Shown here piece after piece: positions 1,664 through 41,858 of a stretch of DNA of 64,000 nt. This DNA is from an uncultured Prochlorococcus sp. Lineage in GTDB: Bacteria; Cyanobacteriota; Cyanobacteriia; PCC-6307; Cyanobiaceae. Positions within the stretch are counted from its first letter, which is position 1. Each line of letters begins with the position of its first letter. A program made the position numbers and the translations under genes. The notes below the pieces were generated by a model. It was not told the origin of the DNA, did not search any database, and saw only the letters and a list, made by a program, of their open reading frames with translations. Location of the stretch: positions 62,001 to 126,000 of the forward strand of contig CACOCT010000002.1 in assembly GCA_902625845.1 (NCBI GenBank), in the 5' to 3' direction.

Positions 1664-2299
1664 TTAATCTAGTAAAAAATTAATTTCATTTTTTAGTTTT
1701 ATTGTTGTTTCAGTTATATCAATCTTTGAAGTGCTTAATGGATAATTAATTGGTTTACCTATCTTAATGATAACTTTATTAAAGAATGGGAGAAAAAATT
1801 TAAATCTCACTAATCTATGAGAGTTTATTATTGCAACTGGTAATAATAATTTTTTTGTTTTTGAAGCTATTAATGCTGCGCCATTTTTAGGTTTACTGAC
1901 AAATCCATCTTTTTGCCTAGTGCCATCAATAAAAATGCCAATAATTTCATTATTAAATAGTTTTTTTGATGCAATGATAATTGAATTTTTATCGACTAAA
2001 CCTCTTTTTACTGGATATGCCCCACATGCTTTTATAATTTGAGAAAGTATTGGTATTTTAAATAATTCTTGTTTTGCCATAAATGATACTTTTCTTCCTA
2101 AAGCATGGCCTAAAAATGGAGGATCGAGCAAAGAACCATGATTAGAAACAATTATAAATGAGTTTTGATCTGGAATATTATTAGCTCCACTTAATTCCCC
2201 ACGAAATATAAATCTAAAAATAGGAAAGACTATAACTTTACTTATAAATTGATACGTAATTTTATTAAGCGATAAGTAATTCATAAAGTTAATAAGCAA
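1664..2299 (-). CDS. plsC: 1-acyl-sn-glycerol-3-phosphate acyltransferase
   Basis: NHGSLLDPP (HX4D-like), FIDGTRQKDG motifs; adjacent to fabD/fabH/plsX. Confidence 0.85.
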   Translation of the reverse strand: MLINFMNYLSLNKITYQFISKVIVFPIFRFIFRGELSGANNIPDQNSFIIVSNHGSLLDPPFLGHALGRKVSFMAKQELFKIPILSQIIKACGAYPVKRGLVDKNSIIIASKKLFNNEIIGIFIDGTRQKDGFVSKPKNGAALIASKTKKLLLPVAIINSHRLVRFKFFLPFFNKVIIKIGKPINYPLSTSKIDITETTIKLKNEINFLLD

Positions 2300-3185
2300 T
2301 TTCTTTTGATGATGAAACTTGACTTATCATAATATTTTTTAAATGTCGCTTAGCAAGTCCTCCTAGGACATTAGAAGGGCCTATCTCAACCAGATGTATA
2401 TTCCCTTGTAATTTAAGTAAATCCATCGTTTCTCGCCATCTGACTCCGTTACACATCTGATCTTTTAAACGAATTTTTAATTCATTAGGATCACTACAGA
2501 GTGTCGGATTAGAATTACTAATAATAGGTAATATAGGTTCTTTAAAATTGAAATCATCTAAAAATTTAGAGAATTCTTGTGCAGGTTCTTTCATAAAATG
2601 CGAATGGAAAGCTCCTGAAACATTTAAAAAAATAAATCTTTTGCATGAAATTATTTTAGATAAATTTTCCAATTCTTCTCTTTTACCAGAAAGAACAACC
2701 TGAGAAGAACTATTATCATTTGCGATTACAACATCATCAAAAGCCTCTACTGATTTTCTAAGCTCATCTTTATCAAAGCCAATTAAAGCAGCCATACTAC
2801 CTTTAACTGCTGATGACATCAATGCAGATCTTATCTTTATTAGAGATACACAATCGTCAAAGGATAATACCTCTGCTGCATATAAAGCAGTAATTTCCCC
2901 TAAACTATGGCCTGCTAAATAGTCAGGCTTATATCCCTTTGACTTTAAAGAATCTAAAAGTATTGATTCAACCAAAAAGAGGCATATCTGTGTATTTTTG
3001 GTATTGTCGAGACTTTCTTCAGAATTTTTATTATCAGTTTGCAAACCACAAATTTGATACAAGTCTTTATTAAAGATATTTGATGCCAAATCAAATCTTC
3101 TTTTTGCATCATTCAATTCAATAATATCTTTTCCCATTCCAAGTTTTTGTGAACCTTGACCTGGGAATAACCACGCAGTCTGCAT
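2289..3185 (-). CDS. fabD: malonyl-CoA:ACP transacylase
   Basis: FPGQGSQ, GHSLGE motifs. Confidence 0.93.
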   Translation of the reverse strand: MQTAWLFPGQGSQKLGMGKDIIELNDAKRRFDLASNIFNKDLYQICGLQTDNKNSEESLDNTKNTQICLFLVESILLDSLKSKGYKPDYLAGHSLGEITALYAAEVLSFDDCVSLIKIRSALMSSAVKGSMAALIGFDKDELRKSVEAFDDVVIANDNSSSQVVLSGKREELENLSKIISCKRFIFLNVSGAFHSHFMKEPAQEFSKFLDDFNFKEPILPIISNSNPTLCSDPNELKIRLKDQMCNGVRWRETMDLLKLQGNIHLVEIGPSNVLGGLAKRHLKNIMISQVSSSKEIAY

Positions 3186-3204
3186 TTTTAAAGTTTTTAT
3201 TTTA

Positions 3205-4212
3205 TTAACCCCATTTTAATAGGGCAGCACCCCAACTTAACCCTGCACCAAAACCACTAGTTAAAATTATGTCATTTTTTTTAATCTTTTGATTTCTTGT
3301 GAATTCATCCAAAACTAGAGGTATCGTTGCGGCAGAAGTATTACCATATTTATTTAAATTACTTAATATTTTTTCTTTATTTATTTTTAGCCTTTCGCCA
3401 ACAGCATCCAATATTCTTTGGTTTGCTTGATGAAGAATTAACCAATCTACATCAGCAATATCAAGATCCATTTTTTTTAACAAATCGCTAATAATAATAG
3501 GAACCTCTCTAACAGCAAATTTATAAACTTCTTGCCCATTCATCGAGATAGTAGAAAATTCTCCTTTACGAAATTTTATTTGATCATTAATCTTACCATT
3601 TAAGTTTTTACTATAAAGATTTAAAACACTACCTCTTTCTCCATCAGTCCTCAAGTTAAAACCAAATAAATTACTTTTATCATTAGAAGCTTCAATAGCT
3701 AATGCTCCTGCACCATCTCCAAAAAGGATACAGCTTCCTCTATCTTTCCAATCAACATAGCTTGATAGTTGATCAGAACCAATGACTAATGCCCTTTTAT
3801 ATCTACCTGAACTTAAATATTGGGAGGCAGTAATTAGCGCGAATAAAAAGCCACTACAAGCAGCCGTAAGATCAAAAGCGAAAGCATTCGTTGCGCGTAA
3901 TTTAGCCTGAATTATAGGAGCAGAACCAAAAAGATCACTTGGAGTAGAAGTAGCCAATATTATTAAATCAATAGATTCAGAAGCCCAATTAGCCATATCC
4001 ATTGCTGATAATGCTGCTTTAAAACCCATCTCTGAAACATTTTCATTTATTTCAGCTATTCTTCTATTTGATATACCAGTTCTTGACTTAATCCACTCGT
4101 CGCTCGTGTCTACTATTTCACTAATATTTTCATTACTCAAAATTTGAGCAGGTAAATAACTGCCGCAACCTTTAAAAGTTATTCCAATATTAGCAAAGTT
4201 TGAACCTTTCAA
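3205..4212 (-). CDS. fabH: 3-oxoacyl-ACP synthase III
   Basis: TAACSGFLFAL, HQANQRI, GNTSAATIP motifs. Confidence 0.95.
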   Translation of the reverse strand: MKGSNFANIGITFKGCGSYLPAQILSNENISEIVDTSDEWIKSRTGISNRRIAEINENVSEMGFKAALSAMDMANWASESIDLIILATSTPSDLFGSAPIIQAKLRATNAFAFDLTAACSGFLFALITASQYLSSGRYKRALVIGSDQLSSYVDWKDRGSCILFGDGAGALAIEASNDKSNLFGFNLRTDGERGSVLNLYSKNLNGKINDQIKFRKGEFSTISMNGQEVYKFAVREVPIIISDLLKKMDLDIADVDWLILHQANQRILDAVGERLKINKEKILSNLNKYGNTSAATIPLVLDEFTRNQKIKKNDIILTSGFGAGLSWGAALLKWG

Positions 4213-8467: not shown

Positions 8468-10771
8468 ATGAAAAGCATACAACTTAATATTAGCGGAATG
8501 AAATGTGGAGGATGTGTTCAAACTGTTGAAAGAATATTAAATGATAGCGAAGGGACAAAGAATGTGACCGTTAATCTTTTAACAGAAAGTGCTTATTTTG
8601 ATATAAAAAATAGCAACTTAGATATAAAAGAAATATTAGATAATCTTTCCCAAAATGGCTTTCCCTCAAAAATTTATACAAATGATTTCTCAGAAAAGAT
8701 TAATAAAGCAGAATTAGATAAAAAAGAAAAATGGGTTAATAAATGGAAAAAACTTAATTTCGCATTTATTCTTTTATTTTTTTCAGTATTAGGTCACTTA
8801 GCTGAAGGAGGTTATATTAATTCATCATTACTTGGAAATATTTATTTTCATGCATCTATAGCTACTACTGCACTACTTTTCCCTGGAAGACCAATAATAC
8901 TTAAAGGTTATAAATCATTTTTACTAAAGAGACCAGATATGGATACTCTTGTAGCTTTAGGAGTAAGCAGTGCTTATCTAACTAGTCTCGTATCTTTAAT
9001 TTTTCCAAATAGTGGATTTCCTTGCTTCTTTAATGAACCAGTAATGTTACTAGGTTTTATACTACTTGGACGTTTTTTAGAAGACAGAGCTAAATATCAA
9101 ACTGGATCTTCAATTAATGAATTATTAGATTTACAGCCTGAAAAAACTCTTATTTATAATGAAAATGATGATGTTAGTGAAATTAGAGTTAATACATTAA
9201 ATCCTAATGACGAAATTCAAGTCCTCGCTGGAGATAGAGTTCCCGCAGATTGTGTTGTTGTAAAAGGCAATTCTCTAATAGATGTTTCACATATTACTGG
9301 AGAATCAAAACCTATTGAAGCCAATATGGGTGACAACTTACTAAATGGCTCTCTGAATTTAAACTCAAGTTTACGCTTAAAAGTGATCAAGGTTGGGTCA
9401 GATACTTCATTAGCCAAACTTGTAAATCTTATTGAATCTGTTCAATCACAAAAACCATCTATTCAAAGATTGGCAGATAAAATAGCTGGTAAATTTACAT
9501 ATTTTGTACTATTTACATCAATATCAAGCTTCATTTTTTGGTGGCAAATAGCCTTTAGAATATGGCCAAATCTTATCAGAACTGAAAATATTGGATTATC
9601 TATCCATAATAATCACTCCTTGCACAGTTCTTTAGGAAGTAACGCAGATAACCCTCTTACTCTTGCCATACAATTATCTATAGCGGTATTAGTAATTGCA
9701 TGTCCGTGTGCATTGGGATTAGCGACACCAACTGTAATTACCGTTGCTTCTGGCAAAGCTGCAAAAAAAGGAATTCTTTTTAAAGGCGGGGATAAAATAG
9801 AGATCGCCTCAAAAATAGATTCAATTATTTTTGATAAAACTGGTACACTGACAAAAGGATCACCTTACGTTGTTGGATACGTTGGTAGTAAAGACAACAC
9901 TTTTCTTCTACAAATATCTGCAAGTTTAGAAAATGAAAGTAGACATCCGATTGCAAAATCACTAATTGAAGAAGCAAAAAAACAAAATATAAATTTATTT
10001 CCAATAAAAAATATAAGTACTGAAACAGGCAGGGGCATCTCAGGAGAGTTAGATTCAATTAGTGGAGAAATAAAAGTCGGAAATTTACAGTGGTTAGAAT
10101 ATCACAATGTTGAAATAAGCGATGAAATTAAAGACAAAATAAATGCAACTGAGATGAAAAAATATACTATTATAGGAGTAAGCATCTCTAGAAATCTTTT
10201 AGGTTGTATTCTATTAGGAGATACTTTAAGAGACGATGCTCTATCATCAATAAAAAAATTAAGAGAAGATAATCTAGACATTTATATTTTTAGTGGAGAT
10301 AGAAAAGAATCTGTTATTGATTTAGGGAGACAACTTAATTGCAAAACAAACCAATTAAAATGGGAACTTTTACCTGCAGATAAACTTAAAAATATTGAAA
10401 AACTAAAAGATATTGATAAAAAGATAGTCGCAATGGTAGGCGATGGAATCAATGATGCCCCAGCTTTAGCCGCCTCCAACCTTGGAATCGCTGTTGGATC
10501 AGGGACTCAAATAGCAAAAGCCAACGCAGATCTTGTCCTAATGGGTGATAAATTAAATGGTCTTCACTATGCTTTAAGGCTTGCAAAGAAAACTATAAGA
10601 AAAATTAAACAAAACCTGTTTTGGGCATTTGGATATAATCTCATAGCAATTCCCTTAGCAGCAGGAGTGTTATACCCTAAATTTGGAATACTTTTATCCC
10701 CTTCCATTGCAGCATTATTAATGGCTATAAGTTCAATCACAGTAGTAATTAATGCATTATCTTTAGACTAA
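8468..10771 (+). CDS. copper-transporting P1B-type ATPase
   Basis: N-terminal HMA GMKCGGCVQ, CPC motif (IACPCALGLATP), DKTGTLTKG, GDGINDAPAL. Confidence 0.93.
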   Translation: MKSIQLNISGMKCGGCVQTVERILNDSEGTKNVTVNLLTESAYFDIKNSNLDIKEILDNLSQNGFPSKIYTNDFSEKINKAELDKKEKWVNKWKKLNFAFILLFFSVLGHLAEGGYINSSLLGNIYFHASIATTALLFPGRPIILKGYKSFLLKRPDMDTLVALGVSSAYLTSLVSLIFPNSGFPCFFNEPVMLLGFILLGRFLEDRAKYQTGSSINELLDLQPEKTLIYNENDDVSEIRVNTLNPNDEIQVLAGDRVPADCVVVKGNSLIDVSHITGESKPIEANMGDNLLNGSLNLNSSLRLKVIKVGSDTSLAKLVNLIESVQSQKPSIQRLADKIAGKFTYFVLFTSISSFIFWWQIAFRIWPNLIRTENIGLSIHNNHSLHSSLGSNADNPLTLAIQLSIAVLVIACPCALGLATPTVITVASGKAAKKGILFKGGDKIEIASKIDSIIFDKTGTLTKGSPYVVGYVGSKDNTFLLQISASLENESRHPIAKSLIEEAKKQNINLFPIKNISTETGRGISGELDSISGEIKVGNLQWLEYHNVEISDEIKDKINATEMKKYTIIGVSISRNLLGCILLGDTLRDDALSSIKKLREDNLDIYIFSGDRKESVIDLGRQLNCKTNQLKWELLPADKLKNIEKLKDIDKKIVAMVGDGINDAPALAASNLGIAVGSGTQIAKANADLVLMGDKLNGLHYALRLAKKTIRKIKQNLFWAFGYNLIAIPLAAGVLYPKFGILLSPSIAALLMAISSITVVINALSLD

Positions 10772-11401
10772 ATGGAAGGTAAATTTATTGTTCTTGAGGG
10801 AATCGATGGTTGTGGTAAAACAACCCAAATAAATGAACTTTACAAATGGTTACCAAAAAGTGGTTTAATCAACAAAAATGCAACTTTAATTAAAACAAGA
10901 GAACCTGGCGGTAGCATCTTAGGAAGAGAAATAAGAGATATGATTTTGAACAATAATAAATTAAATTCACCCTCAATCCTCACTGAGCTACTACTATATT
11001 CTGCTGATAGAGCAGAACATATTTCTAAAATAATATTACCTGCATTAAAAAGTGGAAATTGGATAATAAGCGACAGATTTTCAGGCTCAACACTAGCTTA
11101 TCAAGGCTATGGCAGAGAAATAAATATCGATATTATAAAAAAATTAGAAAATATTGTTTGTCAAAACATAAGACCAGACTTAACTTTCTTTTTAGAGATA
11201 TCACCGAATGAGAGTATATTACGTAGAAAAAATAAAGTCGCAGATAGAATTGAATCTGAAGGCTTAGAATTTTTAAGGAGAGTAAATAATGGATTTAAAA
11301 TAATTGCACAAGAAAATAACTGGGAAGTAATAAAAGCTTCTGACGATTTAAATTCTATATCGCAACAAATTCAAATGTCATTAATCAATAAATTTTCGTA
11401 A
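10772..11401 (+). CDS. tmk: thymidylate kinase
   Basis: [30 protein letters not shown] motifs. Confidence 0.95.
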
Positions 11402-11422
11402 AACTGAGTAAAAATTAATTTT

Positions 11423-12370
11423 ATGGATACTAAATGTACAAATGAAATCAAATTAAAATTAGAAAAAATTGTACAAGAAAATTCCATATCTAATGCTTAT
11501 ATTTTTTATGGTCCTGAACATATTGGAAAAAAAGAAACAGCCTTAAGATTTATATCAGAAATAATCAGAACCAATAATTCTGATTTAGATGCATACCCTA
11601 AAATTAAAGATAATAATTATCCTGATTATTTAAAAATTGAACCAACCTATTTATCAAAAGGAAATCTTATTAATAATTCAGAAATAGATAAAGATAAGAA
11701 TCAAAAAAACAAAGCTTTAATAAGAATTGAACAAATCCGTAATATTAAAGTTTTCTTGAGCAAAAAATCAATCCAATCAGCCAAAAAATTTATATTAATT
11801 GAAAATGCTCATCTATTAAATGAGTCTTCATCAAACTGTTTATTAAAAACTTTAGAAGAACCAACAAATGGAGTTTTTATTTTATTAACTTCAAAATTAA
11901 ATTTATTACTAGATACAATTATTTCAAGATGCCAAACAATAAGATTTAAGCCATATTCAGAACAAGAATTAAAACAATTACTTGAGCAATCAAAACATAA
12001 AACTTCAGAACTTTTATCAGATAGTGAAACTTTGGAAAATTTAATTCTTATATCGAATGGATCTCCAGGGACATTACTAAATAATTTAGAAATTTGGGAT
12101 CAAATACCTAAAAACATAAAAAATGATATTAAATTCCCACTCAAAAATTATGAAAAAATACTATTTTTAGCCAAAAATATTACTACTCATCTTGATTTAA
12201 ATCAACAAGAATTCCTCTTGAATTACATTCAAAGGACATGGTGGAAAAGAACAAAAAATAAAAAGATTGCTGAAATTTTAGAGAGCATCAAATATAATAT
12301 TAATTCAAATATACAACCAAGAATATCCTGGGAAGTCGGCTTATTAAAAGCAAAACTTAATGACTTATAA
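11423..12370 (+). CDS. holB: DNA polymerase III delta' subunit-like
   Basis: AYIFYGPEHIGKKETAL, LLKTLEEPTNGVFILLTS...SRCQTIRF; downstream of tmk. Confidence 0.85.
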   Translation: MDTKCTNEIKLKLEKIVQENSISNAYIFYGPEHIGKKETALRFISEIIRTNNSDLDAYPKIKDNNYPDYLKIEPTYLSKGNLINNSEIDKDKNQKNKALIRIEQIRNIKVFLSKKSIQSAKKFILIENAHLLNESSSNCLLKTLEEPTNGVFILLTSKLNLLLDTIISRCQTIRFKPYSEQELKQLLEQSKHKTSELLSDSETLENLILISNGSPGTLLNNLEIWDQIPKNIKNDIKFPLKNYEKILFLAKNITTHLDLNQQEFLLNYIQRTWWKRTKNKKIAEILESIKYNINSNIQPRISWEVGLLKAKLNDL

Positions 12371-15123: not shown

Positions 15124-15888
15124 ATGAATTTACCAATTAATAAACAAACTGTTCTTATTACAGGAGCAGGAAGAGGATTAGGTTCCGCAATATCTAAATC
15201 TTTTCATAGAGAAGGTGCAAAAGTAGTTATAAATTATAGAAAATCATATGAGAGTGCTAAAAGATTGAAGGATTGCCTTGGAGATAATGCGATTTTAATT
15301 AAAGGCGACATCAGAAATAAAGAAGAAGTGAAACACATGAGTAAAGAATTATCAGATCAAAAAATCATTATTAATACAATTGTTCATAATGCAATTAATG
15401 ATTATAAATTTAACGGAGATCAAAGAAAAAAAATTGATGAAATAGATTGGCAAGATTTCCAAAATCAAATTGAAACTAGCCAAAGAGGTTTTTTAAATTT
15501 ACTAAATATTTTTACACCAAGTATGAGAAAAGACTTCTTCGGTAGATTTATAACAGTAGGAACAAATTTATTTCAAAATCCTGTAGTTCCTTACCATGAT
15601 TATACTGCGGCGAAAGGCGGATTATTATCAATGACGAGAACTGCTGCAATAGATTTAGGAGAATTTAACATAACTGTAAATATGATTTCAGGGGGGCTAT
15701 TGAGGATAACAGATGCTAGTAAAGATACACCCGAAGAGGTTTTTGACTATATAAAAAGTATTACTCCTCTAAGAAAAGTCACTTCAACTAATGATTTTTC
15801 TGATGCTGTATTATTTTTTGCTTCTCCTTGGTCAAGAGCTGTAACAGGACAAAATCTTATAGTTGACGGAGGTTTAGTACTTAATTAA
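15124..15888 (+). CDS. SDR-family oxidoreductase (FabG-like)
   Basis: TGAGRGLG, YHDYTAAKGG, C-terminal GQNLIVDGG motifs. Confidence 0.85.
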   Translation: MNLPINKQTVLITGAGRGLGSAISKSFHREGAKVVINYRKSYESAKRLKDCLGDNAILIKGDIRNKEEVKHMSKELSDQKIIINTIVHNAINDYKFNGDQRKKIDEIDWQDFQNQIETSQRGFLNLLNIFTPSMRKDFFGRFITVGTNLFQNPVVPYHDYTAAKGGLLSMTRTAAIDLGEFNITVNMISGGLLRITDASKDTPEEVFDYIKSITPLRKVTSTNDFSDAVLFFASPWSRAVTGQNLIVDGGLVLN

Positions 15889-16127
15889 TATTTTACTCAA
15901 TAAGAAATATAAGAAAGATTAATTAATTGATTATCTTATTAATAGAAATTTTTATTAATTAATATACATGAAATAAATTTATACCAACAATTTATCGGTA
16001 AAAAATTTTAACTTCATCGCTAATTAAATATAATAGTTATAGATCCACTACATAAACGTAGACTATTAATTTAAATTATTTAATAATTTTAGATTTTAAT
16101 CTACTAATTTACCCCTAATTAAATTTC

Positions 16128-16331
16128 ATGGAATATAAAATTCCACCAAACATAATTTTACACAAAAGCAAAGAAGTCATTTTTTATATTTCAAATAATA
16201 ATAAAAACCCTTTAAATATTGATTTATGGACAAGAAAGTTAAATCTTTTAGGTTATAAAGGATTGGTAATTCATAGTAAATGTATTTTTAAAAGACTTAA
16301 GACAGATGCTTCTCTGGGTAAGCATTCGTAG
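16128..16331 (+). CDS. hypothetical protein (67 aa)
   Basis: Short ORF only. Confidence 0.3.
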   Translation: MEYKIPPNIILHKSKEVIFYISNNNKNPLNIDLWTRKLNLLGYKGLVIHSKCIFKRLKTDASLGKHS

Positions 16332-16690
16332 AGTAAATTTAAAGATTATTATTTTGATCTGATAAATCAATCTTTATTTGAAATTTCGCAATAAATCCAA
16401 TAGAAATTAGTAATAAGCCAAGTGCCACTTGTGGAGGAGGTAATGTCATGAGTATTTGATTTTTCATTAATTTAATAAATTTTCTGACATATTGCTAAAA
16501 AAAATTTGCTATTGATATAAAGAAATTTTATTTAAATTATTTTTAAGAGATCTCTAATATAGAAAGCCATTATATTAATGAAAAACTAGAAAAAATAAAA
16601 ATATGAAACTTAGTTACTTAAGAAAAAACAACTATATCAATTATTGATTAATTAGTAGATAATTGACCTTTAGCAATATATGAAAGTCTT

Positions 16691-16774
16691 ATGAAACTAT
16701 CTACTCCAATGATAAGCCTTTCTAGATTCCTAAATACATTAAACAAAAAGAAATACAGGTTAAAATACAAATAA
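16691..16774 (+). pseudogene. truncated member of MKLxxPFT microprotein family
   Basis: agtcttATGAAACTatctactcca... encodes MKLSTPMISLSRFLNTLNKKKYRLKYK*; start context matches other copies. Confidence 0.5.
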
Positions 16775-16985
16775 TAATTACGAGAAGTATAACTACCGGG
16801 ATCAAGAATTTTTAGAGCATAAAACGAATAATTGCTGTCTAATTAACTGCAATTAGGCAAGAAATTTACCAACACAATTATTTATAATGAAATTAAAGTT
16901 ATATTTGTATATTGAGATCTTTAAATTTTAACTAGCAGAAAAAATTTCAGAAATCATTTACTAAAAAACGTTTTAAGGTTTTCTG

Positions 16986-17372
16986 CTATAAATCTTTTAA
17001 ATCATCATATTCAAAATCTTTTACTTCACCGAAAGATATATTAGTTTTAATCTGTTTGGGATATCCTGAATCTTCTGCAATCTGCATCCAAAAATTTATA
17101 TCCGTTTTATTAAATTTTGCACATTCTTTAAACCAGATTTTTAAACCTTTACATTTTGAACTCTCTTCCTCCTTGTCTATTCCAAAAAAGTAAAAAATCT
17201 CCATATAATTACCAAAAAATTTATCCCCAGACCAATAATCCATAGTTCGTTTGGTACCAAATTCATCAATAAAGAATGCATCATATTCATGAGATTTAAA
17301 ATCAACAAATAATTCCGGATTTACGTTATGAACATCATTACCTATGATGAGAGTTATTTTTTTATCAATCAT
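16986..17372 (-). CDS. hypothetical protein (128 aa)
   Basis: ORF with ordinary composition; no family recognised. Confidence 0.55.
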   Translation of the reverse strand: MIDKKITLIIGNDVHNVNPELFVDFKSHEYDAFFIDEFGTKRTMDYWSGDKFFGNYMEIFYFFGIDKEEESSKCKGLKIWFKECAKFNKTDINFWMQIAEDSGYPKQIKTNISFGEVKDFEYDDLKDL

Positions 17373-19259: not shown

Positions 19260-19787
19260 GTAATCTTTAGGACATTAAATGATATTCATTACTTATAGAT
19301 TATCTAGACCAAAAATAATTTACAAAGTATTTTTTATTATTAATATAAAGACAATTTAGTGCCACTATATCAAAATAAAAATATCAAACATAACTAAGCA
19401 TAAATTAATTTCTGATTACTCAAGAACCTCTTCTAGATAAATTAATAATATAAAGAAAATATTCCCATTTGATAATTTTATTTCTTTATAAATTGACTAC
19501 CCCTATAAATTTATTAGTAATGTTTAATTTGTGTGTCGAATTATTTTCACTCAAAAAATAGACACAAGGCAACATTTGGTTTGTTATGACCAACAAACAT
19601 AATAATTTCATTTAGTCCATGCAATTATAAATAAATAAACTCTATTTTTACAAATTAAATAAATATTATTTCTTTAATCACAAAATATTTAAAGAAATAA
19701 ACAAAAAATTGATAAACCTATAAACTTTAAATTATTAAAAAATATATCTTTTACGAGAAGGTTATCTAAAGCTACACATAAAAAAAA

Positions 19788-20309
19788 TTAAAATTGTGGA
19801 TCAATTTCCTCGTACTCATCTTCTTCATCTTCTTCATCTTTTTCATTAACTTCATACCATCCCCATTCTTTTGAAGTAACATCCTTATTATTATATTGAT
19901 CAAAAAATGATTGCTCTTCTTCTCTATATACATAGGTAAAACATTCATTTGCACTAATTCTCTCTGTCTCTTCGACTAACTCCATAGTATCTAAATCTAT
20001 CTTATAAATCAGAGCACTGAATTCGCAAACTTTTACATCGACTGTATTAAGTTGAATCTCATTTTCTTTTAACCAAAATTCTACATAATTAAAAAGATCT
20101 GTAAATCCTTCAAATCTTCCAAATTGGGGTGTAAAAGTAAAATATTCAGTTATTTTATTATTAAATATTTCTACTGCTGCACTTTCATACTTATTAAAAG
20201 ATAAAACTTTTTCTTTAATCCATAAATTGCAACAGGCATACTCCCTCATATTTTTCCGTTCACAAAAAATATATTCTCTACCTTTAATATCTTTCTCTAA
20301 CTTTGACAT
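19788..20309 (-). CDS. hypothetical acidic protein (173 aa)
   Basis: ORF; DEEDEEDEYEEID C-terminus. Confidence 0.55.
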   Translation of the reverse strand: MSKLEKDIKGREYIFCERKNMREYACCNLWIKEKVLSFNKYESAAVEIFNNKITEYFTFTPQFGRFEGFTDLFNYVEFWLKENEIQLNTVDVKVCEFSALIYKIDLDTMELVEETERISANECFTYVYREEEQSFFDQYNNKDVTSKEWGWYEVNEKDEEDEEDEYEEIDPQF

Positions 20310-36166: not shown

Positions 36167-36183
36167 ACTCCCCGGGCGGAATC
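36167..36183 (-). repeat. displaced tRNA-Asn 3'-end remnant (ACTCCCCGGGCGGAATC)
   Basis: Matches tRNA-Asn 3' end with one G missing; hairpin AACTCATAT...ATATGAGTT at 36124-36147. Confidence 0.75.
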
Positions 36184-36250
36184 ATAAAAAGTCCCAAATG
36201 CACTCGTATGAAAGGGTTGGGAAGGTTATTGAATGAGATATAAGATGATA

Positions 36251-36272
36251 CCCCTAACAAACCCCTAACAAA
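36251..36272. repeat. CCCCTAACAAA iteron pair, 11-bp spacing
   Basis: cccctaacaaacccctaacaaa; related single copy at 38446-38456. Confidence 0.75.
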
Positions 36273-36394
36273 ATTATTAAACCAATTAAATTGATCTTTA
36301 AATATTGAGCAAATATTTTTACTTTAAATATCCCCCTCAATCAATATTCTGAAAATAAAAATTAATATTAATCTTGGATTTATATATATATTTT

Positions 36395-36925
36395 CTAAAA
36401 ATCAAGATGTCTTTTATTAAATAAAACTCCAGGGAATTCACATCCATTACTTAAAGTCCAGAATCCTGAACCTGCTCTTACTAATCTAGGATTATTCCTA
36501 TATCCAAAATAATAAAGAGTTGAATCCATACCAACAAAAATTACTCTTCTTCTATAAGTAGTATTAATCTCATCTTTTTTTGGGAAAAAACCTCTAGCAG
36601 TTTCATTACCAAAGAAAGTTAATATTTGTTTTGATTGAGGATTAAAATTCTTATCTTCTCGTTTAAATTTCCACCATTTTGATCCATATCCCTGAGACTC
36701 TATCATTTCAATTTTACTTATAAAATTTCCATCAAAAAATAATTCTGCCTGTTTTGGCATACCTCTTGGAGTAATATATTTTATTTTAATTATCGCTTCA
36801 TCTATTAAATCGCTCTGCCAGATGCAACCATCATTGTTTGACTTTTTTTCAGATTTTACTTGACTCATAAAACAAATAAGTAAGCATATTATTAATTTTG
36901 GGATTAAATATTTATTCATAATCAT
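36395..36925 (-). CDS. secreted hypothetical protein
   Basis: Signal-like N-terminus; clean ORF overlapping the next gene. Confidence 0.65.
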   Translation of the reverse strand: MIMNKYLIPKLIICLLICFMSQVKSEKKSNNDGCIWQSDLIDEAIIKIKYITPRGMPKQAELFFDGNFISKIEMIESQGYGSKWWKFKREDKNFNPQSKQILTFFGNETARGFFPKKDEINTTYRRRVIFVGMDSTLYYFGYRNNPRLVRAGSGFWTLSNGCEFPGVLFNKRHLDF

Positions 36926-37316
36926 TAATTTTATCTATGAATTTACATTTATAATTCCCAATTTTTAAACCATAATAATTTTTTCTTACATAAAGCGGTA
37001 AGTAATCGAAATAAGGAGATCTAATATATGTAATTACATTTCTAGTAGTATTCCAACTTTGAGCAGTATTCCCTCTATCAATTAACGCATCAAATTCAAG
37101 TAATTCATTTCCTGTAGGAACTTTAATATATTCCAATTCGCTTCCCCAGTCTCTTGGGTCTTTCCTTAGTTTTGCTTCAGTAATAGAAATATTTCCTAAT
37201 TTAGGACAATGGTAATTATATGTGGGTAATTTAATTTCATGAGATTTAACTTTTTCTTGCAGAGATAAAATAATACCAAGAAAAATTATGCTTATTAACT
37301 TTATTTGATATGTCAC
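36912..37316 (-). CDS. secreted hypothetical protein, paralogue of 37942-38367
   Basis: MTYQIKLISIIFLGIILSLQEKVKSHEIKLPTYNYHCPKLGNISITEAKLRKDPRDWGSELEYI shared. Confidence 0.75.
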   Translation of the reverse strand: MTYQIKLISIIFLGIILSLQEKVKSHEIKLPTYNYHCPKLGNISITEAKLRKDPRDWGSELEYIKVPTGNELLEFDALIDRGNTAQSWNTTRNVITYIRSPYFDYLPLYVRKNYYGLKIGNYKCKFIDKINDYE

Positions 37317-37355
37317 AAAGCAGAGAGAGTACTTAATTGAATAACAATAGATATT

Positions 37356-37949
37356 TTATTTTTCCATTCGTCTGTAAATACTTGTTTTTGGAAACATATC
37401 TTTAATTCTCTTATCATATTCGCATCTTGAATCACAATTTAATATTACTTCCTCTTTCTCTTTTAACCTAAAAAGTTCTTGAGAAATTATCCCATCTATT
37501 TGAATAAGTCTCCTTCTTTTCAAATAAAAAGAACATCTTCCTTTCATCGGAGATCCTATATATTTTATTTGATTCTTGCATTCTCTGGATACCCATTTAT
37601 TAAATAAGTCCTGACTTTCATTCAGATCATTTTCAAGACTAGACATTCTTGAATAGTAAATATTTGAACTAAATTTCTCAAGATTCTCCATTGAAACAGA
37701 ATTAATTTTTTCTTCAATAATTTGATCAATCATTTTTTCTGCAATCATACCGCATGCAATTAATAGAGAAGTATTGCGAGGCAGTCTTTTTTTTAGACTA
37801 AGTTCATTATTCCTAGAAATACAATCATTTTGAAATTGATAAAGTGATTTACTATTTTCAGGTTCAGAAAAATAACTTAAATGAGCAATTATTTTTGAAT
37901 TAGAGGAGAATACTAAAATTACTCCAATATAAAAAAATAATTTATTCAT
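37356..37949 (-). CDS. secreted hypothetical protein
   Basis: Signal-like N-terminus; clean ORF. Confidence 0.65.
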   Translation of the reverse strand: MNKLFFYIGVILVFSSNSKIIAHLSYFSEPENSKSLYQFQNDCISRNNELSLKKRLPRNTSLLIACGMIAEKMIDQIIEEKINSVSMENLEKFSSNIYYSRMSSLENDLNESQDLFNKWVSRECKNQIKYIGSPMKGRCSFYLKRRRLIQIDGIISQELFRLKEKEEVILNCDSRCEYDKRIKDMFPKTSIYRRMEK

Positions 37950-38367
37950 GATAATTTATTGTTTCTATAAATTTGCAAGCATAAATCCCAGATTTCAAAC
38001 CATCATAATTTCTATGCACTTCAATCAAAAATTCATAATTTTTTTGATATGGATTAGATGGATTAGGAGATCGATAATATGTAATTATGCGCCAAGCAGT
38101 TATCCAAGACTGTGAAGCAATTCCTCTTTTTATCAAGGCATCAAATTCAAGATTGCGATTCCCTCTCGTAATCCTAATATATTCCAATTCGCTTCCCCAG
38201 TCTCTTGGGTCTTTCCTTAGTTTTGTTTCAGTAATGGAAACACTTCCCAATTTAGGACAATGGTAATTATGTGTAGGCAATTTAATTTCATGAGATCTAA
38301 CTTTTTCTTGTAAAGAAAAAATAATTCCAAGTAAAATTATGCTTATTAACTTTATTTGATATGTCAT
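37942..38367 (-). CDS. secreted hypothetical protein, paralogue of 36912-37316
   Basis: Near-identical first half to 36912-37316. Confidence 0.75.
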   Translation of the reverse strand: MTYQIKLISIILLGIIFSLQEKVRSHEIKLPTHNYHCPKLGSVSITETKLRKDPRDWGSELEYIRITRGNRNLEFDALIKRGIASQSWITAWRIITYYRSPNPSNPYQKNYEFLIEVHRNYDGLKSGIYACKFIETINYHE

Positions 38368-38580
38368 AAGGCAGAAATCGTACTTAATAGAATAAATTTC
38401 TTAGATATATCAATAGTTTTAAGAAAATTTTCAAAACCATAAACAAACCCCTAACATTTTTTTAAAAGTAGTGCATACTAGTGAAATGTTAGGGAAGTCT
38501 CTTATTCTCTTAAAACTCTGATATAACCATAAAAAAAGAGACTTGAGAAAGTCTCTGGAAGTGTTTGAAACTGTTATGAA

Positions 38581-38602
38581 ACTCCCCGGGCGATTTTCGA
38601 AC
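38581..38602 (-). repeat. displaced tRNA-Asn 3'-end (ACTCCCCGGGCGATTTTCGAAC)
   Basis: 22 bp matching tRNA-Asn 3' end with 3 mismatches; hairpin AGAGACTT...AAGTCTCT at 38538-38556. Confidence 0.85.
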
Positions 38603-38661
38603 AAGTCTCTAATGACTTGGTATGACTACTCTTGAACCCTTATTTATCAATATTTCCTGAA

Positions 38662-38683
38662 TTACACTAACTTTACACTAACT
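38662..38683. repeat. TTACACTAACT iteron pair, 11-bp spacing
   Basis: ttacactaactttacactaact. Confidence 0.85.
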
Positions 38684-38689
38684 ATTTTT

Positions 38690-39535
38690 TTATTTTTTAT
38701 TTGTTTTTTGTTTTTGTCTTGAATATTCAAGTTTTCTACATGCAAGACAATTACCTTTTAAATCTCTTAAACTATCGTGCCCATATTTACATTTTCTGCC
38801 TTTATAGAATTTTATATTTCTCCTCCTTGCTTCTGCAGGAGAAAGAGGCACTAATCTATTTTTTATTCGATATTCCTCCTCTTTAGACTTAAGAATATCT
38901 TTCTGTTTCCTTTCATATGCTCTCTTTTCCTTATCTCTTCTTTTTTTCTGTTGTTGATTTGTCTTTCTAGTTTCTCTTTTAACTCTTCTATACCAAGATG
39001 GTTCCCATATTACTTTTTTACCAGAATTATCATAATAATATCCAAGTTTTTTCCTAAGAAATCTTGAAGGACAACTTTTATATTTTTCGTAATCAATTGA
39101 ATATTCGGGAAGATGAGTCAACGGATAACCCATGCATCCACAAATACAAATTTCTCGAAAAGTACCCCTATTAATATTTGAATCCGTATAGTTTGCTTCT
39201 TGACTAGATCTATTATTACTCCTGCTTTGATTACTCCGATATGCTTCTTGATTAGATCTATTCTTATTCCACATTTCATGCCACCATGAACTAGACCAAT
39301 TCTGTTTTTGATTCGTCCCAGTTGCATCATTTGTTGTTGCATAACTGTTATCAAAGTTTGTTTTCTTTTTTTCATCACTTAAAATCGCCCATGCATTATT
39401 GATTAATTTCGTTTTCTCTTCATCTCCTCCAAGATCAGGATGATATCTTTTTATTTGTTGACGATATGCTTTTTTAATTTCTTCGAAGGAAGCATTCCTA
39501 TTTACACCAAGAATTTTGTAGGGATTATTTGTCAT
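38690..39535 (-). CDS. J-domain protein with C-terminal zinc-binding-type motif
   Basis: N-terminal [37 protein letters not shown] (HPD); C-terminal [23 protein letters not shown]. Confidence 0.8.
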
Positions 39536-39575
39536 CTCTTTATCTAAAAAATCATGTCATTTAATACTTCTGAAA

Positions 39576-39607
39576 TTACACTAACTATTCTTAAACTTAC
39601 ACTAACT
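39576..39607. repeat. TTACACTAACT iteron pair, 21-bp spacing
   Basis: Copies at 39576-39586 and 39597-39607 between the J-domain gene and the T5orf172 gene. Confidence 0.85.
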
Positions 39608-39614
39608 ATTTCCA

Positions 39615-40553
39615 TTAGAATTCTGCTCCATTAATCATTTCAATATTCACTTCTTCAATTTGATTATTCTCTAACCTGAAATATTCAGTCTGTGGGATTC
39701 TATTCTCCTTAAATTTCTTATGTAAGTCTTTTTCTAAAGTTTCATAGTTAGAGCATCTAACAACATTTAGAATCTCATCTGGTTTAAGTTGATTAAATCT
39801 TCTTAAAAGATTATCTGTAATACCTATTTTGAAAATATCTTTGTTCCGAATAAAATAAACAAAACCTTTCGCTCCAAAATCTTTTACCTCGATAATTTTC
39901 TCCTTTGGTTCTTCGCCATTAAGAGTTTTTGTTCTTTCTGAATAAAACCTTAATAGTAATTTTGCTGCTTTATTAATATCCTCTCTGTTGTAGAAAAATG
40001 CTTTTAAATATGATTCCCATCTTTGTTTAATTTCTGGTGTCGAATAATCTCCACCTGTGTATTGAATATTTGTCTCATAGAATTTCATAATATCCAAAGG
40101 ATTTTCATCAATTCCAAAAGCATTCCATAAATAACCAACTATTGGTTTGTTCATTTCGTATTGAACTTTGATATATTTCTCATAATTTTCTTTGTTACCA
40201 ACTGTCCCTGAGTTTCTCCATGAATCAAAACTTTCAAAAATTGGAAAGCAATCATTAAATTCATATTCAAAAACTTCATCATCATCCTCATCATCTTCAT
40301 CTGCCTCAAACTCCAAAACTCCACTAACAATCCCTCTTAAATCACTTGGTTCCATGCCTTTAAAGATTTGCTTTACACTATCCAAACAAATTCTTAAATC
40401 TAATTTTTCCTCATCAGACATCCATATTTTTTTAGAAGCATTTAACTTTTCCTCTAATTCAATTTTCATTTCATTAAGAGGTTCAGTAATCTCATGAAAA
40501 AAATCAAGAATTTCATCTTCATTCTTTTCCCAAATATTTTTATAAGTATCCAT
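39615..40553 (-). CDS. T5orf172 / GIY-YIG-like domain protein
   Basis: C-terminal GFVYFIRNKDIFKIGITDNLLRRFNQLKPDEILNVVRCSNYETLEKDLHKKFKENRIPQTEYFRL. Confidence 0.75.
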   Translation of the reverse strand: MDTYKNIWEKNEDEILDFFHEITEPLNEMKIELEEKLNASKKIWMSDEEKLDLRICLDSVKQIFKGMEPSDLRGIVSGVLEFEADEDDEDDDEVFEYEFNDCFPIFESFDSWRNSGTVGNKENYEKYIKVQYEMNKPIVGYLWNAFGIDENPLDIMKFYETNIQYTGGDYSTPEIKQRWESYLKAFFYNREDINKAAKLLLRFYSERTKTLNGEEPKEKIIEVKDFGAKGFVYFIRNKDIFKIGITDNLLRRFNQLKPDEILNVVRCSNYETLEKDLHKKFKENRIPQTEYFRLENNQIEEVNIEMINGAEF

Positions 40554-40603
40554 TTTTTATGAGCGATGATACTATCTTAATCATTACTTGAGTTTCAGAG
40601 TAA

Positions 40604-41530
40604 ATGAAAGAATATTACAGGGTAATGCTTGGAAGAAAAAGTATATTTGCGAAGGAATGTAGAGAGAAAGGGTTTATTTTTGGCAATTTTGATATTGATC
40701 AAGATCTAACAGAATCATTAACTGAGGACTTGAGAGATTTTAATAAAGAATTTATTCCGATATATCTTCAAAAAAATCCTGAAAAGAGTAAATTTTCTGC
40801 TGGTTCAAGTTGTGGATTTCTCTGGACTATTTCTAAAAAAATAAAGAAGGGAGATATTGTATTCTCACCAGATGGTGAAGGAAATTACTTTGTAGGTGAA
40901 GTAACTGGTGATTATCAATATATTCCTGATTCGGATAAACCTCATAGAAGAGAAGTTAAATGGGGATTAGAAAAAATTGATAGAGCAGATATGAGTCAAG
41001 AATTAAAGTATTCAACAGGTTCTATTGGAACAGTCTGTCAGATAAGCAAATATAAAAAAGAATTAGAAAAATTAATAAAGGGAGAAGTTTTCAGTCCAGT
41101 CATTACAACAACCGATGAGACTATCGAAGACCCAACCGTTTTTGCTCTTGAAAAACATTTAGAGGATTTTTTAATCCATAATTGGAATCAAACACCTCTA
41201 GGTAAGAAATATGATATCTACAAAGATGAAGAAAATTCTGGGCAACAATTTCCAACTGATACTGGACCAATTGATATTCTTGCTATTAGTAAAGATAAGA
41301 AAGAAGTATTAGTTGTTGAATTAAAAAAAGGTAGAGCAAGTGATGCTGTTGTTGGACAAATTCAGAGATATATGGGATATGTCACCGAATGTATTGCTGA
41401 AGATACTCAACAAGTAAAAGGGATCATAATTGCTCTTGATGACGATAAAAGGATTAAGTTTGCTCTTAAGGTTGCTCCAAATATTGATTTCTATCGGTAC
41501 GAAGTTAAGTTTAATTTGATCAAAGAATGA
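40604..41530 (+). CDS. PD-(D/E)XK (NucS-like) nuclease with possible EVE/PUA-like N-terminal domain
   Basis: GPIDILAISKDKKEVLVVELKKGRASDAVVGQIQRYMGYV gives D..E-x-K..Q pattern. Confidence 0.75.
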   Translation: MKEYYRVMLGRKSIFAKECREKGFIFGNFDIDQDLTESLTEDLRDFNKEFIPIYLQKNPEKSKFSAGSSCGFLWTISKKIKKGDIVFSPDGEGNYFVGEVTGDYQYIPDSDKPHRREVKWGLEKIDRADMSQELKYSTGSIGTVCQISKYKKELEKLIKGEVFSPVITTTDETIEDPTVFALEKHLEDFLIHNWNQTPLGKKYDIYKDEENSGQQFPTDTGPIDILAISKDKKEVLVVELKKGRASDAVVGQIQRYMGYVTECIAEDTQQVKGIIIALDDDKRIKFALKVAPNIDFYRYEVKFNLIKE

Positions 41531-41552
41531 GAGGAAATTAGGATTGATTGGA

Positions 41553-41596
41553 TTACACTAACTAATTTTTAAAATTACACTAACTTTACACTAACT
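41553..41596. repeat. TTACACTAACT iterons x3 (22- and 11-bp spacing)
   Basis: Copies at 41553, 41575, 41586. Confidence 0.85.
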
Positions 41597-41741
41597 TTTT
41601 AAAAAAATTATTTATTTTATAACAAATCTAGTGGATATTATTGGAATGTACTGAATATCTATTTCTTCCCTAACTCCTTTTATAGAAACAAAAAAAGAGA
41701 CTTATGAGGTCTCTTGATTGTTCTTGGATTTTGTTAATGAA

Positions 41742-41813
41742 CTCCCCGGGCGGGATTCGAACCTGCGACCAATCGGTTAACAGCCGATCGCTCTACCGCT
41801 GAGCTACCGAGGA
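41742..41813 (-). tRNA. tRNA-Asn (GUU)
   Basis: TCCTCGGTAGCTCAGCGGTAGAGCGATCGGCTGTTAACCGATTGGTCGCAGGTTCGAATCCCGCCCGGGGAG, full cloverleaf, anticodon GTT. Confidence 0.96.
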
Positions 41814-41858
41814 ATATTAAGAATTTAGCCCTTACACCCACCAAATGACAAGGGGGGG

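Follow-up and report, generated by a model that had tools for sequence, protein, structure and literature searches.

The question raised by this locus is what reads a short word, TTACACTAACT, that recurs seven times in one small part of a Prochlorococcus genome. The DNA analysed, hereafter the window, is a stretch of 64,000 nucleotides from an uncultured Prochlorococcus sp. An earlier note, made from the sequence alone, had described the copies as exact, alike in orientation and phased on the helical repeat, and, with integrase arm-type sites and replication iterons as known examples of such repeats, had proposed that a cassette-specific protein binds them for excision, replication or regulation.

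Seven repeats in a cassette at tRNA-Asn

The description of the repeats held up: TTACACTAACT occurs in seven exact copies in the window, all on the plus strand at the positions given below, where 0.07 would be expected from dinucleotide shuffling and no shuffle reached seven, and the spacings of 11, 21, 22 and 11 bp within clusters were correct. A genome-wide count in the assembly to which the window belongs (1.18 Mb, 66% complete) returned no exact copy beyond these seven, and a reversed-pattern control in the same assembly gave 0 matches. The copies sit in a 3.2-kb cassette (38581-41741) that is bounded by tRNA-Asn and by a remnant of the tRNA-Asn 3' end, and that adjoins a second cassette with a different word. 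The features are as follows; the arm assignments are predictions.

41741..41814, minus strand: tRNA-Asn (GTT), the integration target (ARAGORN)
41741-41752: core ACTCCCCGGGCG, the 3' end of tRNA-Asn, common to the cassettes at the locus
41553..41596, plus strand: tRNA-proximal arm, three TTACACTAACT copies (41553, 41575, 41586) in steps of 22 and 11 bp, with 144 bp from its end to the tRNA core
40604..41530, plus strand: cargo, NucS/PD-(D/E)XK-type nuclease, 308 aa (Pfam NucS_C, 4.7e-8; PADLOC, 9.3e-150)
39615..40553, minus strand: cargo, T5orf172/MUG113 (GIY-YIG-like) protein, 312 aa (Pfam)
39576..39607, plus strand: middle cluster, two TTACACTAACT copies (39576, 39597) 21 bp apart, its flanks compared with L030 and L035
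38690..39535, minus strand: cargo, J-domain protein, 281 aa (Pfam DnaJ, 2.4e-19)
38662..38683, plus strand: distal arm, tandem pair of TTACACTAACT (copies at 38662 and 38673) beginning 81 bp past the core start, a distance shared with other family members
38581..38592, no strand assigned: distal att core, a 12-bp remnant of the tRNA-Asn 3' end (ACTCCCCGGGCG; direct repeat)
38447-38456: third ACCCCTAACA copy, proximal arm of the cassette at 36167-38581
36250..36270, plus strand: distal arm pair with another word, two copies of ACCCCTAACA at an 11-bp period (36250, 36261)
36167..36178, no strand assigned: next distal core, edge of the second cassette at 36167-38581 (direct repeat)

The earlier note had placed the clusters inside both cassette ends and between the two minus-strand genes. 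More precisely, the middle cluster alone separates those genes, and the outer ones stand 81 bp in from the distal tRNA remnant and 144 bp in from the tRNA gene. The neighbouring cassette holds four small genes, two of whose products (36912-37316 and 37942-38367) are 65% identical.

The nuclease matches a candidate single-gene defence family, PDC-S02, over its full length (PADLOC, 9.3e-150). Among the three genes of the window cassette Pfam identified no integrase or recombinase, no replication initiator and no phage-like gene, and an AlpA-like gene was also absent from the cassette. Searches of phage records returned no match to the cassette or to its nuclease, and the window's own assembly, 66% complete, contained no match to a tyrosine recombinase. 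A cassette-specific protein, if taken to be one that the cassette itself encodes, thus does not fit the gene content, which includes neither an integrase nor an AlpA-like gene; what the motif marks instead is a cassette family whose cargo varies.

The word keeps a fixed distance from the tRNA core

We scanned 266 genomes of the genus for pairs of TTACACTAACT with a gap of 0-25 between copies, and retrieved 3-20 kb around each pair for comparison of the loci. Close pairs were found in 11 of the 266 genomes, with 0 in the reversed-pattern control, and every one of them lay in a cassette at the tRNA-Asn locus or at the core of that locus, which we take to be flanked, where the contig is long enough, by an ATPase-like/cysteine-synthase-like gene side and, on the other side, by a conserved 119-aa gene. 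The pattern that the earlier note had named as speaking against it, a motif spread over the whole chromosome and unlinked to tRNA remnants, was accordingly not what we found. In a collection of 85,462 species, with one genome per species, the gapless 22-mer occurred only in records named Prochlorococcus. Matches outside Prochlorococcus in that collection had irregular gaps and look like chance, as apparently do the motif pairs in viral contigs, which showed irregular spacing only.

Across these cassettes the distal pair starts 81 bp (82 bp once) past the point where the 12-bp core ACTCCCCGGGCG begins. Between the end of the proximal cluster and the next core there are 144-145 bp or, in two cases, 123 bp, a variant that is shorter by about two helical turns. 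The proximal arm of L030 has the identical 22 + 11 trio arrangement seen in the window. At L028 the core that follows the pair after ~145 bp carries a single change, ACTCCCTGGGCG, and beyond it stands another cassette with another repeat word. This geometry is constant across cassettes with unrelated cargo, which includes a type I restriction system (L031), a type IIG/ISP restriction enzyme (L029), a helicase-restriction protein (L025) and a TPR protein (L030); the tRNA 3' end is duplicated, with the intact tRNA at the cassette boundary. Given that the spacing is locked to the core, a role in recombination is favoured.

Two readings that assign the repeats to other functions fare poorly against this geometry. 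Rep proteins typically bind direct repeats phased in this way, and in that respect the clusters resemble the iterons of a small replicating element; however, the cassette has no initiator gene, so that the Rep gene expected beside the iterons of an iteron-controlled replicon is absent, the copies stand at both ends with a spacing locked to the att core, and the integrase-bearing elements described below share the layout. We therefore give scarcely any credence to the replication role that the earlier note had allowed for. A role as operators or promoter elements for the cargo genes is just as hard to credit: while in some other cassettes the first gene (AlpA) begins right beside the tandem pair, so that binding there could also regulate, two of the three window clusters are downstream of a gene's end, that at 38662 of the J-domain gene and that at 41553 of the nuclease gene, and the distance is fixed to the core and not to the genes.

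The same layout recurs with other words

Defining a tRNA-Asn remnant as ACTCCCCGGGCG without a following GG, we collected 65 distinct sequences from the 266 genomes and looked for a tandem repeat that starts +78 to +85 from the core and has a match of 80% or more and a period of 11, or of 12 in some families. Such a repeat was present at 54 of the 65 remnants, compared with 0.98% at the same offset from random positions in the same loci; the remnants are related by descent and not phylogenetically independent, and these counts overstate independence. Around 20 different arm words were found, among them ATTTCCCCACC, ATATTCCCAAC, ATCCCGAACAT, GACGAATATTTT, ATAAATGCCAC and ACCAGAACGA, so that across remnants the words vary and the spacing is constant. 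In 19 of the 30 cassettes with two cores, a cassette's own word appeared again in the proximal arm in the same orientation, as against 1.6% when the words of other cassettes were substituted; the remaining 11 complete cassettes had no recognisable proximal copy, in part because several are only 169-257 bp long.

An AlpA-like gene lies within 1.5 kb of 30 of the 65 remnants, and it often begins right at the end of the tandem pair (e.g. L127, L130 and L153, at core +103). This placement speaks for a reading in which a small AlpA/MerR-like helix-turn-helix protein, an excisionase or directionality factor, binds the repeats in place of an integrase, and it is one that phased direct repeats would also suit, since excisionases such as lambda Xis and P2 Cox bind sites of that type. 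Classical Xis sites, however, are found on one arm only, whereas here copies occupy both; moreover, 35 of the 65 remnants, the window cassette among them, have no AlpA gene within 1.5 kb, and, as described next, the words follow the N-terminus of the integrase. We regard the AlpA reading as unlikely. Whichever of the two proteins is predicted to bind, integrase or AlpA, its binding at the tandem pair might also control the adjoining AlpA-like gene.

Integrase-bearing elements and the co-variation of word and N-terminus

A profile search of the 266 genomes for tyrosine integrases of 413-448 aa gave matches in 23 of them. Elements carrying these integrases were located at tRNA-Asn (L154, L155, L196 and L200) and at tRNA-Ser (L157, L162, L194 and L206); they have the tandem distal pair with element-specific words, and most also have 2-3 copies in the proximal arm. 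The integrase of L157 has a Pfam arm-DNA-binding domain (2.2e-13), the sole such match among the integrases scanned, and in the others the arm domain was assigned from fold and position, not by Pfam. In the predicted structure of the L155 integrase (mean pLDDT 80), the core-binding and catalytic regions are preceded by a beta-rich N-terminus, in a domain arrangement that is uncertain given the pTM of 0.49; lambda integrase at full length (1z1g) is matched by the model over 396-408 columns with an E value of 4e-7, and the Tn1549 integrase is matched as well.

The earlier note had suggested asking if the repeats co-vary with an integrase or initiator family, and with integrases they do. Among 18 integrases, which are not phylogenetically independent, word similarity correlated with identity of the N-terminal domain at rho 0.58 (Mantel p 0.0005) and with identity of the catalytic domain at 0.45; the partial correlations were 0.39 for the N-terminal domain and -0.09 for the catalytic domain.

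Several other recombinase loci were encountered in these searches. At L209 (7572-7739) a truncated integrase fragment lies by tRNA-Asn, with arm repeats of TGGTGGCGATA type kept at both ends, and this may represent a possible step from an autonomous element to an integrase-less cassette. A 359-aa integrase at tRNA-Thr/Tyr had no consistent repeats of arm type in its 3-kb loci. Short recombinases, with open frames of ~190-220 aa and no tRNA in their 3-kb loci, were seen at L065, L067, L068, L087, L088, L090 and L092; one-mismatch motifs by two of them (L087 and L092) were single unpaired copies and were discarded.

Taken with the fixed distance to the core and the presence of copies in both arms, the shared layout of the integrase-bearing elements and the tracking of words with the integrase N-terminus strongly support the arm-type alternative that the earlier note had named. 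Predicted arm-type sites of a tyrosine integrase are thus the best explanation of the TTACACTAACT copies, and, judged from sequence comparison, very probably the correct one.

The search for an integrase that reads TTACACTAACT

No integrase with TTACACTAACT arms was found in the genus by the profile in 266 genomes, incomplete ones included, by a protein search of viral contigs, or within a second class of recombinase. An arm-binding integrase of the 413-448 aa type is present in just one of the 11 carriers, G045, where its own arms are TTCCCAACATA. Two carriers that are 100% complete, MIT 9302 and MIT 9107 (G020 and G021), have no integrase of the 413-448 aa type at the profile threshold.

In another genus of the same family, near-identical pairs (TTACACTAACT and TTACTCTAACT, with at most 2 changes) lie 40-130 bp upstream of genes for tyrosine recombinases of 528-529 aa, in elements for which the start of an EVE-domain gene apparently serves as core. 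By its position in these genomes the TTACACTAACT word is tied to recombinases. Given that these recombinases differ in class and target from those expected at the tRNA-Asn cassettes, the word may have arisen twice. Homologues of the ~528-aa recombinase also occur in the genus of the window, with words other than this one. These recombinases define a second element family, with the 5' end of the EVE-domain gene as core (TACTGGCTAATGAA) and 11-bp tandem words of its own (L213 at 2105-3679 and 15558-17144; L214 at 10031-11620 and 19296-19811; and L215-L220); the genus of L213 and L214 is not that of the window, and L213 includes a frameshifted recombinase copy.

The middle cluster and exchange of cargo

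The left half of the middle cluster at 39576-39607 (aatacttctgaaaTTACACTAACTATTCTTAAAC) is like the proximal arm of L030 (aatatctctgaaaTTACACTAACTATTTTTTAGAA), and its right flank (attt) is of the distal-arm type. Given this proximal-type left half and distal-type right flank, we read the cluster as the scar of fused tandem cassettes, and it looks more like such a fusion junction than like a third functional site. A cassette with the J-domain gene and another of the same family with the T5orf172 and nuclease genes would once have been adjacent, and recombination between their arm repeats would have fused them, deleting the internal core and leaving the middle cluster behind. The converse case is seen at L026 and L033, where one pair stands between two cores and cargo is absent. 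Core-to-core elements of 169-257 bp, with little beyond two cores and arm repeats, were also observed (L135, L106, L144, L051, L110 and L145).

The three clusters flank two cargo modules, and the cargo-less L026 and L033 retain a single pair, as might be expected if crossover in a cassette system took place at the repeats themselves, as at attC. This is very improbable, since it is the tRNA core that is duplicated at the cassette ends, with the repeats 81 and 144 bp off, the hybrid middle cluster is what plain direct-repeat recombination would give, and no integron integrase is encoded.

Homologues of the cargo occur under other arm words. A T5orf172 homologue of 61% identity is carried by the integrase-bearing L200, inside a cassette bearing other arm words, and the nuclease has a homologue in L114 (54% identity over the C-terminal part), again in a cassette with other arm words. 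Cargo thus crosses between arm-word families.

A model for the cassette

If the copies are arm-type sites, the segment 38581-41741 would be an integrated element whose circular form would have an attP of three arm sites, 144 bp, the 12-bp core, 69 bp and two arm sites, with all arm sites in one orientation. The N-terminal domain of the integrase would bind the arms, and its core-binding and catalytic domains would bind the core. By inserting at the tRNA-Asn 3' end, the circle would rebuild the tRNA and leave the distal remnant. Since the integrase is absent from the cassette and from complete carriers, we infer that the cassette is mobilised in trans, with the cognate integrase provided from another element.

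More tentatively, and with rather less than even confidence, we suggest that defence cassettes without an integrase could form a large pool that shares tRNA-Asn as its landing pad, the ~20 arm words acting as an address that chooses the passing integrase, and cargo being re-addressed through arm-repeat recombination or cassette fusion.

The signature of core, +81 bp and 11-bp tandem locates the ends of otherwise anonymous gene cassettes, and the pairing of integrase N-termini with DNA words in nature offers material on the evolution of arm recognition. If cassettes do move in trans, the arm word would predict the mobile element that can carry each defence gene in an organism that is among the most abundant photosynthetic ones.

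Comparison with known systems

The arm sites of known integrases, among them those of lambda, Tn916 and CTnDOT, are read by the N-terminal domain (survey, PMC8138268). The window-type cassettes resemble these systems in having accessory arm sites near the recombination site, and differ in that no cognate integrase for TTACACTAACT was found in the carriers. Predicted arm-type sites of mycobacteriophages are pairs of 11-bp repeats, and the attP of Pixie has predicted arm sites in direct orientation, a pair to one side of the core and three to the other, a layout that the window shares; Tweety, a related phage with the same attachment site as Pixie, has different arm sequences (PMC3203893). In Pixie, however, integrase and attP are on one phage genome, whereas the window-type arm word is found on small integrase-less cassettes.

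Integrase-less satellites and islands that are moved in trans likewise keep att sites and rely on a helper enzyme, as we propose for the cassettes, but at a single tRNA the latter use many different arm words. Integron gene cassettes are also small and arrayed at one site; here, however, the sites are tRNA cores and arm sites in place of attC, with a 12-bp tRNA-derived core at the cassette ends, and the cassette encodes neither an integron integrase nor any other. Prochlorococcus tycheposons, as far as they are described in PMC10872708, are cargo islands targeted to tRNAs that have a tyrosine recombinase. The window cassette shares with them tRNA integration with a duplicated tRNA end and lacks an encoded tyrosine recombinase, and window-type cassettes, at 0.2-5 kb, consist of arms, core and cargo only. 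Thus, arm-type sites are of a known kind, and what appears to be new, with tycheposons compared through the account in PMC10872708 only, is a pool of integrase-less, largely defence-carrying cassettes that use many words at one tRNA.
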